This document shows, piece by piece, positions 13,739 to 17,027 of a stretch of 64,000 nucleotides of DNA. Both the position numbers and the translations under genes were made by a program. The notes under the pieces are model-generated. The model did no database searches, was not told the DNA's origin, and saw only the letters and a list, made by a program, of their open reading frames with translations. Each line of letters opens with the position of its first letter. Position 1 is the first letter of the stretch. This DNA is from an uncultured Ruminiclostridium sp. (GTDB lineage Bacteria > Bacillota > Clostridia > Oscillospirales > Ruminococcaceae): assembly GCA_947623915.1 (NCBI GenBank), contig CANQIB010000013.1, positions 1 through 64,000 of the forward strand. The letters run 5' to 3'.

Positions 13739-13775
13739 ATTCCCGACGGTCATTTTTCTCCGTCGGGATTTTTTT
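13739..13775. terminator. Terminator between convergent rarA and TSUP gene
   Basis: tcccgacgg-tcatttttct-ccgtcggga followed by ttttttt. Confidence 0.75.
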
Positions 13776-14124
13776 GTCTGTCGGCTCTGTGGAACAGCTC
13801 TTTTGCTCCTACCGCCGCCAACAGTACGGCAAACAGCTTTCTGAGCAGGGTATTGTCGATGTACATTCCCGCCGCGCAGCCTGCCGCCGCTCCCAGCAGG
13901 CCGAAAAATCCGTAAGTCTTTATTGCCGAAAAAGCTATCAGTTTGTTTTTGGCATGAAATATAAGCGACAGAAGCGCTATGGGCAGAAAAAACATAAGGT
14001 TAGCGCCCTGTGCGATGCTTTGCGGGGTGTCGGTAAATACGGAAAGATAGACAAGAAAGATAAACCCTCCGCCAAGTCCCATTGAGGCGGCGGCGCCGGC
14101 GAGAAATCCGATAAAAACATTCAT
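13750..14124 (-). CDS. TSUP (TauE/SafE) permease, C-terminal half-like
   Basis: MNVFIGFLAGAAASMGLGGGFIF..., hydrophobic; overlaps upstream partner by 4 nt (ATGA). Confidence 0.8.
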   Translation of the reverse strand: MNVFIGFLAGAAASMGLGGGFIFLVYLSVFTDTPQSIAQGANLMFFLPIALLSLIFHAKNKLIAFSAIKTYGFFGLLGAAAGCAAGMYIDNTLLRKLFAVLLAAVGAKELFHRADRQKNPDGEK

Positions 14125-14474
14125 GTCAGCAGTATCCTTACGGAGCTTATCAGTATTATTATCCCGAACAGCCTCCTCAGCAGGTCGTCGGGTATCTTTT
14201 TGAGCAGCAGCGCTCCCGCTGCCGCTCCGGCAAGTCCCCACGGAATGTACTGCCATGCCAAAGAAAAGTCCAGCTTTCCTTGAATGTAATAAACGGCGGT
14301 AGTAAAAAGGCTGAGCGTAAATATCAGCGCTACCGAGGTGGCGTGCGCTTTTTTAGCGTCAATGCCGCTTTTTTCAAGGCAGGGAACTGCCGCGATCCCT
14401 CCTCCCGACCCGAAAAGCCCGTTTAGTATACCGCACAGCGTCCCCAGAAGATAATCGACGTGTTTTTTCATCAT
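14121..14474 (-). CDS. TSUP (TauE/SafE) permease, N-terminal half-like
   Basis: GILNGLFGSGGGIAAVPCLEKSGIDAKKAHATSVALIF TSUP signature. Confidence 0.82.
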   Translation of the reverse strand: MMKKHVDYLLGTLCGILNGLFGSGGGIAAVPCLEKSGIDAKKAHATSVALIFTLSLFTTAVYYIQGKLDFSLAWQYIPWGLAGAAAGALLLKKIPDDLLRRLFGIIILISSVRILLT

Positions 14475-14570: not shown

Positions 14571-14582
14571 ATTTTTAAAAGA

Positions 14583-14765
14583 ACCGCCTTGCCGTGGTAT
14601 GAAGATAAAACCCGCACAACAGTACGGTGGGTTAATTTCTCCCGAACGGTTCACGCTCCCTTCGTCCGCAAAAGCGGGAGGTCTGCAATCCGCGTTCGGA
14701 GGCGAAATCCCTATTATTTTTTGTTGGATCATATACATTCATACTTAAACGCACAAGGCAGTAAA
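14583..14765 (-). ncRNA. ssrS: 6S RNA-like ncRNA
   Basis: Closing stem actgccttg...gtatgaa / ttcatac...caaggcggt, large central bubble with small 3' hairpin (aaccc..gggtt), terminal stem ctccgaacg...cgttcgggag with ctccc/gggag; terminator; neighbourhood of rarA as for B. subtilis 6S-1. Confidence 0.7.
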
Positions 14766-14772
14766 CAAGTCC

Positions 14773-15093
14773 TTATTCGTTTTCCTCGTAGTCGAACATT
14801 TGGGAGAAAAGCTCGAAAAAAGCATTTCCGACGCGCTTATATTCTTCGTCGTTGTCGATGGAATCAAGATACTTTTCTCCGTTGTTTTCCATTTCCTTGA
14901 GGAAAACTATCTCGTCCTCGTCGGATTCGTTATTTTCATCCTCGGAGTAGGGAGTAAGCGCGTAGTAAAAAGAACCGTCCACCTCAAGCCGATAAAACAC
15001 CTCGAAAGTTACCGTGTTGCCTTCCTCGTCCTCAAGGTCGATAAGCTCATAATCGTATTCTTCGTCGTTGTTCATCTTCTCGGTATCGGACAT
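14773..15093 (-). CDS. DUF1292-like acidic protein (YrzB family)
   Basis: YELIDLEDEEGNTVTFEVFYRLEVDGSFYYALTP...DEDEIVFLKE. Confidence 0.85.
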   Translation of the reverse strand: MSDTEKMNNDEEYDYELIDLEDEEGNTVTFEVFYRLEVDGSFYYALTPYSEDENNESDEDEIVFLKEMENNGEKYLDSIDNDEEYKRVGNAFFELFSQMFDYEENE

Positions 15094-15297: not shown

Positions 15298-15326
15298 TTG
15301 ACTTTTATTTCTGTTTGTGCTATCAT
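15298..15326 (+). promoter_or_regulatory. Sigma-A promoter of the orphan ncRNA (TTGACT-17-TATCAT)
   Basis: TTGACTtttatttctgtttgtgcTATCATataat. Confidence 0.7.
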
Positions 15327-15332
15327 ATAATC

Positions 15333-15895
15333 AAGGGAAAGAGAATATCCCCAGACAGAGCAGGAGGCTTGGTGCATAACTCTTTACTCAAATAAAGCAC
15401 AAAATGCTCGGTGTATATATTATGGAAACTGTATACAAATAACAGTCGGCAAGGAGGCGAGTCCGATGGCACAGGATACAGTATCCGCATCACAGTCCGT
15501 CGGAACTCGGACTGAATAGGAAATAAAATTGCAGCTTGCTCATACGGCATTTGCAAATGATTTCAAGGACGGGATTTACCCGATATGATGAGTCCGACGG
15601 TTTGTGATAAGGATAAACAGCAAAAATTACATAAGCAGAAATATCTGCACTTTACCGCGAGAGCGTTTATATACACTACCCGATGTTGTAAAGGCAGGGT
15701 GATTGAAATGATCAGTGAAGTTTCAGCGAAAAGGGGCAGCGGATAAGCGGCTGCCTTATCGGCGGATAACACCGCAAATAAATTGTGAGGTATACTCCGA
15801 TGTACTGATTACTTCGGTCGGCGTTAAGCGGACAAATAAAAATTAAATATGTTGCCGGGCTTTGAAGCTAAAACTTCAAAGCCTGTTGTTTTGTG
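15333..15895 (+). ncRNA. Large (~560 nt) structured noncoding RNA, family unassigned
   Basis: No + strand ORF; promoter at 5' end; many nested hairpins (ggatacagtatcc, gtccga..tcggac, cggg..cccg, gcagaaatatctgc, ggcagc..gctgcc); perfect 10-bp terminator stem at 3' end. Confidence 0.65.
15858..15893 (+). terminator. Terminator of the orphan ncRNA
   Basis: ggctttgaag-ctaaaa-cttcaaagcc followed by tgttgtttt. Confidence 0.75.
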
Positions 15896-16031
15896 AAAAG
15901 AGTCGAGATATACTATCCCGATTTTGATTGACATATCGGACGATTTATGATAAAATAACAAATAAAGGTATCCGAAATAACGGAAATTTCGGATTTATGG
16001 TCAAAGCCTTAAAAGATAAGACGGTGAACAG

Positions 16032-17027
16032 ATGGGGTACAGGATAAATCTCGGAAACTGGGGCAGCGTGTTTGCCGTTCCGTCCGATGTTGTAGATAAA
16101 TACATAAAAATTGCCGGCGGGAGCGCCGTCAAGGTTTTACTCTATTTTCTCAGAAACAGCGGAAGAGAAACGGATACTCTTCGGGCGTCACAGGACCTCT
16201 GCATAAAAGAGGAGGACATCACCGACGCTCTGATTTTTTGGGAACAGCAGGGTATCCTGAAAAGCAGCGGGAACGAGTTTTCGCCGGCGGACGGTCCTTT
16301 ATCGAGAAATGCCGAAAAAACAGACGCGGCTTTTTCTCAAACGGACGATGCCGCTAAAAAAAACGCGGAGCTTATACGTTCCGCCGCGCTGCGCACTCCC
16401 GATTTTTCCCCCTCGCAGATAGCCGATACGGTTAGGGGCGACGACAAGGTAAGCTATCTGTTCAAGGTTTGTGAAAAGCTGTACGGCAGACCACTAAAGC
16501 ACGCGGAGCAAAACGCTCTGGTGGCGATCACCGAGCATATAGGGCTTCCCGCCGAGGTGGCGCTTATGCTGGTGGATTATTGCTTTTCCATAGGCAAGAC
16601 CTCGCCCGCGTATATGAAAGCAGCCGCGATGGACTGGGCGGAAAAGGAAGTAGTTACGCTTTCTTCCGCGGAGGAATATGTGATAAAACTGCAATCGGCG
16701 CATAACGCGGAAAACACGGTAAAATCGCTTTTCGGGCTTGACAGGGCGATGTCGCAAAAGGAAAAGGATTTTTCGACCGTTTGGGTAAACGAGTGGGGCT
16801 TTTCGCCGGAGATGATAAAAGCCGCGTATGATATAAATATCAATGCGAAAGGAAAAAGCTCCTTTCCGTATATAAATAAGATCTTGGAAAACTGGCATGA
16901 AAAAGGCATAACTTCGCCGCAGCAGATAAATGACGGGCAAAGCGCGGCAAAAGCGGCGCAAAACTCGTCGCTCGACACTTCGACGATATATCAGAGAATA
17001 CTTGACGATTACAAAAAAGGAGAATGA
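16032..17027 (+). CDS. DnaD-domain replication initiation/primosome protein
   Basis: N-terminal winged-helix-like region, DnaD-like C-terminal (WAEKEVVTLSSAEEYV); overlaps the DnaC-like gene by 4 nt. Confidence 0.8.
   Translation: MGYRINLGNWGSVFAVPSDVVDKYIKIAGGSAVKVLLYFLRNSGRETDTLRASQDLCIKEEDITDALIFWEQQGILKSSGNEFSPADGPLSRNAEKTDAAFSQTDDAAKKNAELIRSAALRTPDFSPSQIADTVRGDDKVSYLFKVCEKLYGRPLKHAEQNALVAITEHIGLPAEVALMLVDYCFSIGKTSPAYMKAAAMDWAEKEVVTLSSAEEYVIKLQSAHNAENTVKSLFGLDRAMSQKEKDFSTVWVNEWGFSPEMIKAAYDININAKGKSSFPYINKILENWHEKGITSPQQINDGQSAAKAAQNSSLDTSTIYQRILDDYKKGE

Follow-up and report, generated by a model that had tools for sequence, protein, structure and literature searches.

Two-codon minigenes, such as bar of phage lambda and mg2 of axe-txe (PMC8708949), combine a strong Shine-Dalgarno (SD) sequence with an ATG, one sense codon and a stop codon; the LEE1 leader minigene, in the terms in which it is cited in the same paper, belongs to this two-codon type as well. 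Known minigenes of this kind are translated, and ribosome loading alters the behavior of the RNA; in the case treated in PMC8708949, a two-codon ORF exerts its effect in cis when translated, possibly via mRNA stability. They sit in leaders or operons beside a regulated gene. A short ORF is also found in the dual-function sRNAs RNAIII, SgrS and VcdRP (PMC8672173), stand-alone, structured and terminated RNAs that join this ORF to a base-pairing region. In eukaryotes, the tal/pri and ENOD40 transcripts carry several very short ORFs on one RNA that is otherwise deemed noncoding. The tal/pri peptides share a conserved core. Among large structured bacterial RNAs, we know of no micro-ORF arrays in the ROOL, GOLLD and OLE classes. 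6S RNA occupies a core machine of the cell in its own way, since it binds RNA polymerase by open-promoter mimicry.

The locus considered here lies in a window of 64,000 nucleotides (the whole stretch of DNA that was analyzed) from an uncultured Ruminiclostridium sp. and encodes a putative structured micro-ORF RNA of about 560 nt on the + strand (15332–15895; 5′ start placed from the −10 box). A preliminary description had placed an independent structured RNA, equipped with a promoter and a terminator of its own, between a DUF1292 gene and a dnaD-like gene, and this outline has held. The promoter TTGACT-N17-TATCAT is found at 15298–15326 (+) and possesses an extended −10 TG in addition; the intrinsic terminator (15856–15895, +; stem and T-rich tail at 15856–15885) has a stem of 12 pairs, where 10 bp had been counted; and the flanking genes match PF06949 (DUF1292, divergent and conserved; 14773–15093, −; E 1.6e-15) and PF07261 (dnaD-like; 16032–17027). 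Promoter and terminator bracket a strongly folding strand, and since both signals and the fold recur in relatives, the arrangement is not due to chance. Beside the DUF1292 gene lies a 6S RNA gene with its own terminator (14577–14767, −; RF00013, 54.7 bits). A second promoter at 15928, downstream of the RNA terminator, presumably serves dnaD.

The ornate folding noted at the outset is borne out by a folding energy of −175.6 kcal/mol for the RNA strand, against −139.3 ± 5.9 kcal/mol for 100 dinucleotide shuffles, none of which reached so low a value (z = −6.1). The covariation check proposed along with it also came out in favor of a conserved structure: in an RNAalifold alignment of eight close homologs, 16 of 50 tested pairs carried double-sided changes, and the covariation score was 0.348, against 0.205 ± 0.014 after shuffling and at most 0.097 after sliding, with 94% of cells paired; the structure was derived from the same alignment on which it was tested, and the eight sequences largely amount to two clades, so that few independent events lie behind these figures. 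The helices comprise a hairpin spanning the ORF1 start codon (helix 4; 15459–15508, +), in which 15459–15469 (GAGTCCGATGG) pairs with 15497–15508, and the covarying hairpins TGC-TCATACG-GCA (helix 5; 15537–15549, +) and CGGG-ATTTA-CCCG (helix 6; 15570–15582, +), the latter with double-sided changes in three of four pairs. Throughout the genus, a hairpin with the loop CUCNAACGG keeps its pairing through compensating stem changes (UGC/GCA, UAC/GUA, CAGC/GCUG, AAAC/GUUU, GGAC/GUCU). Between the first SD sequence and the start codon lies a stretch that can be paired to the 3′ portion of ORF1 (GCGAGUCC with GGCUCGC or GACUCGC; in L053, UUGAGUCC with GGGCUCAG), and pairing of the start region surpassed that with shuffled downstream sequence in 30 of 55 RNAs (p <= 0.05; p 0.25 for the window copy).

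A cmscan search of 15300–15900 yielded no Rfam family at gathering score, with ROOL, GOLLD, OLE, RNase P, tmRNA, SRP and 6S RNA among the models; at a relaxed threshold only chance matches appeared (SpF39 at 26.6 versus 60 bits, SpF25 and CsrB). The suggested resemblance to ROOL, GOLLD or OLE, which would be confined to their being large structured bacterial RNAs, found no cmscan match even at this relaxed threshold, while the reported lack of RNase P, tmRNA and SRP motifs agrees with the search. Membership in a known large class, one of the two options left by the preliminary description, thus finds no Rfam match, and on the side of the other option no described Rfam class fits. We considered and rejected a divergent RNase P RNA, given that a 269-bit RNase P is encoded elsewhere in the genome (G000:C6). 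With its adjacent 6S RNA the micro-ORF RNA has no sequence or structural relation that we found, and cmscan separates the two.

On the + strand there is indeed no plausible ORF of ordinary length, as had been stated, but three SD-led ORFs of 17, 12 and 2 codons had been missed, and as these are conserved the label "noncoding" is not supported. The first SD sequence, AAGGAGG (15451–15457, +; anti-SD dG about −13 kcal/mol in orthologs), leads via the block AAGGAGGCGAGTCCG-ATG into ORF1 (MAQDTVSASQSVGTRTE, 17 codons; 15466–15519, +). The second, GGGTGATT (15697–15704, +; dG −11.6 in orthologs), leads via GGGTGATTGAA-ATG into ORF2 (MISEVSAKRGSG, 12 codons; 15708–15746, +), and the third, GAGGT (15787–15791, +), is part of the block GAGGTATACTCCG-ATG TAC TGA, which contains a two-codon ORF encoding MY (15800–15808, +). 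The segment 15787–15808 has the SD sequence, ATG, single sense codon and stop of a two-codon minigene; unlike the known minigenes, it is one of a series carried by a separate RNA that has its own terminator and no conserved gene downstream. The window copy consists of these three modules only. When homologs are aligned, SD plus ATG form the most conserved blocks. ORF2 has 12 codons in the close clade, where its stop keeps the same position as TAA, TGA or TAG, and the MY ORF is kept across the clade with Y, T or C as second codon and TGA or TAA as stop.

Of 41 genomes searched by blastn, 8 have homologs, with the window's own counted among these, and the true homologs inspected lay upstream of the DUF1292 gene and divergent from that same gene. 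DUF1292 was located in 56 of 71 genomes of the genus, and the upstream regions of 40 such loci were taken blind to the RNA. Almost all members of the genus that were examined have a homolog, and homologs are present in further genera of the family. A promoter (5–6 of 6 matches to TTGACA plus a TANNNT box, 16–18 nt spacing) is present at 61 of 64 homologous loci, other genera counted, and terminators at most of them delimit RNAs of about 430–1150 nt, with a few mis-called by the simple scan that we used. The block AAGGNNGCGAGTCCRATGG (up to 1 mismatch) was detected in 67 of 398 family genomes, representing 31 of 126 genera, against about nine genomes for the reversed pattern; matches in a scan of genomes of all species fell mostly in Ruminococcus, Ruminiclostridium and Oscillospiraceae MAGs. 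We rejected a spread beyond the family: the sole order-level match beyond its bounds falls by chance within an ABC-transporter operon, and scattered matches in other phyla were judged to be chance from their record titles, apart from L141, which was inspected and whose frame was unlike the others. A phage origin was likewise discarded, as a distant blastn search against phages gave no real match and the single IMG/VR match (L178) is a chance one within an ordinary long ORF. At all 19 of 19 loci from other genera a DUF1292-like ORF lies upstream and divergent, and 6S RNA adjoins the RNA at 10 of 18 checked. The conserved neighborhood is therefore 6S/DUF1292/micro-ORF RNA; downstream genes differ between relatives, so that dnaD, which lies far off in G014, is incidental and was rejected as a partner. 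Adjacency to 6S RNA is no evidence of shared function.

SD-led ATGs were counted at an anti-SD energy cut of −8 kcal/mol, for which the anti-SD tail was of Bacillus type instead of being taken from the 16S of this genome. Sixty-one RNAs contain 184 of them, where dinucleotide shuffles gave 38.9 ± 5.9 (49 at most) and the reverse strand 2; the relatedness of the homologs inflates these counts, which are not fully independent. Two-codon ORFs number 20 in the same RNAs, against 2.1 ± 1.4, and neither SD-led GTG (29 versus 26) nor TTG (24 versus 39) is enriched. In the 40 genus RNAs, which were chosen by synteny and not by motif, the sum of SD-led ATGs is 101 against about 23, so that motif-based retrieval is not the cause. 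Strong anti-SD sites taken without regard to a start codon are in moderate excess (150 versus 97 ± 7 shuffled); the case therefore rests on the combination of SD, ATG and stop.

These numbers bear on two readings of the RNA that dispense with translation. If it were a purely structural large RNA of the ROOL, GOLLD or OLE type, as the strong fold, the covariation and the lack of an Rfam match would allow, the SD-AUG combinations would be by-products of purine-rich sequence; the dinucleotide shuffles keep this purine bias and yield a fifth of the SD-ATGs, GTG and TTG at equal SD strength are not enriched, and stops swap in place, all of which makes this explanation very unlikely. A CsrB-like sponge that exposes GGA motifs to a protein, to which the weak CsrB alignment might point (10 bits versus a gathering score of 71), is hardly credible: no CsrA was found in the genome, which already contradicts it, and CsrA would need neither the start codon nor the conserved in-frame stop that the motif requires.

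Because relatedness inflates counts, retention was followed in 17 non-overlapping species pairs. Starts were retained for 62 of 72 SD-led ATGs and 70 of 125 other ATGs (p = 1e-5). The stops of SD-led ORFs were identical in 35 cases, swapped in place in 13 and moved in 14; with other ATGs, the corresponding numbers were 30, 1 and 39 (p = 8e-6 for swapped versus moved). Divergence was 0.11 at SD sites, 0.10 at starts, 0.19 in ORF bodies and 0.24 in the rest. Substitutions in ORF bodies fell 80/74/97 on the three codon positions, 60 being synonymous and 141 non-synonymous, a synonymous share slightly above the control (27/80). The comparison of DUF1292 between the window and L002, one of these species pairs, gave 10/6/50, with 38 synonymous and 19 non-synonymous changes. 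This suggests that the ORF bodies, unlike DUF1292, are under little amino-acid constraint. With starts and stops retained and bodies devoid of the codon signature that an ordinary gene has, initiation and termination rather than peptide sequence would be the main object of selection. A conserved protein-coding frame, which the preliminary description had named as evidence against it, is thus there by half: position, start and stop are conserved, the amino-acid sequence barely.

The RNA might nevertheless be read as a polycistronic message of the insect tal/pri kind, whose products would be functional micropeptides, short and basic or acidic, and it does carry several short ORFs that have separate start signals. 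In ORF1 the M-[ED/G]-x-x-E beginning is preserved and individual clades have cores of their own (for example ESQSVETR and CELRLAIV), ORF2 has 12 amino acids throughout the close clade, and some peptides are conserved between relatives (MRIVFRIGPSE and MRVIRIGPSE, with synonymous changes in RIGPSE between L065 and L068). L060 has three tandem, near-identical ORFs (MEGEYLPL, MESEYLPL and MEGEYLLL, each followed by a stop). Peptides of the RIGPSE and EYLPL kind may be exceptions that matter. Set against this are the codon-position bias, weak beside that of DUF1292; the two-codon ORFs, too short for a meaningful peptide, yet conserved and enriched; and a frame-changing indel in ORF1 of L003 that alters the C-terminus and spares the RNA hairpin. 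The RNA also departs from tal/pri in its variable ORF bodies, its two-codon ORFs, its bacterial origin and its SD-driven modules. We regard the micropeptide interpretation as unlikely.

The arrays of relatives reach about 10 modules at a spacing of ~50–60 nt (51–60 nt in Ruminococcus-type loci). L133 has a run at 51–59 nt spacing in which ORFs of ~10 amino acids alternate with MY ORFs, and in both L133 and L160 (RNA +531 to +796) the MY ORF alternates with basic ORFs of ~10–11 amino acids that share RFT motifs (MKVHMRFTDIK, MRVTRRFTNK), a pattern that suggests tandem duplication of a two-module unit. The arrays of L112, L136 and L154 end in MR and MA two-codon ORFs. Ruminococcus-type RNAs (L112, L136, L154, L150, L164) also contain, in the same arrays and at ~54-nt spacing, start-less modules GGGGTGAGTCC-RAAGG with anti-SD energies of −11 to −13 (for instance at +495, +548, +602 and +970 of the L136 RNA). 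Modules that lack a start codon are difficult to reconcile with a peptide function; ribosome docking accounts for them more readily.

A stand-alone, terminated, structured and presumably expressed RNA with an SD-led ORF also fits the description of a trans-acting dual-function sRNA that would pair with target mRNAs and carry one or more incidental ORFs. Its covarying helices and terminator, and the presence of an hfq gene product encoded in the genome, are compatible with such a role. The conserved blocks, however, are SD-AUG modules that are complementary to the anti-SD sequence rather than to mRNAs. To our knowledge, dual-function sRNAs such as RNAIII and SgrS carry one ORF, in contrast to the present RNA with its 3 to about 10 modules, whose peptides are weakly conserved, and we judge this role distinctly unlikely.

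We give about an even chance to the reading that the RNA represents a class working by ribosome engagement, with the peptides secondary. Ribosomes or 30S subunits would dock simultaneously at several modules in series, each of which has a strong SD and usually, behind it, a start codon with a tiny ORF of 2 to about 25 codons. What selection would maintain is that translation initiates and terminates on the micro-ORFs, rather than which peptides result. Possible consequences are titration of initiating ribosomes, ribosome-dependent refolding, and protection or stabilization of the RNA. The conserved locus, promoter, structure, SD sites, starts and stops, the micro-ORF enrichment and the weak peptide constraint are drawn from comparison; from these we infer transcription, translation, a function in ribosome engagement and any downstream effects. 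A more specific proposal, possible but doubtful, is a ribosome sponge whose tandem SD modules bind several 30S subunits or ribosomes and whose minimal ORFs dump them again, tuning global translation as 6S RNA tunes transcription; in that event, the neighbors would share an analogous logic of an RNA occupying a core machine. Titration would need high abundance, because the window copy has only three modules. In Rfam 15 and the open-access literature, outside of which most subscription journals fall, we found no described bacterial RNA class in which ribosome-binding sites with micro-ORFs, two-codon ones among them, form a free-standing series and in which the starts and stops of these ORFs are conserved but their peptides largely are not. 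If confirmed, such an RNA would blur the boundary between coding and noncoding RNA in bacteria and offer a natural case in which translation itself is under selection; it would also suggest that, in abundant gut bacteria, 6S RNA has a neighboring counterpart on the translation side.

Two observations concern the genomic surroundings. The window's own genome encodes a second, more distant DUF1292 homolog (G000:C7:26686-26967, E 5e-11). At 13750–14474 (−) of the window there are two adjacent, overlapping ORFs, of which the downstream ORF matches TauE/SafE (PF01925), while its upstream neighbor looks like the other half; relatives likewise have two ORFs, so that the pair may be a real transporter in two parts and not the result of a frameshift.
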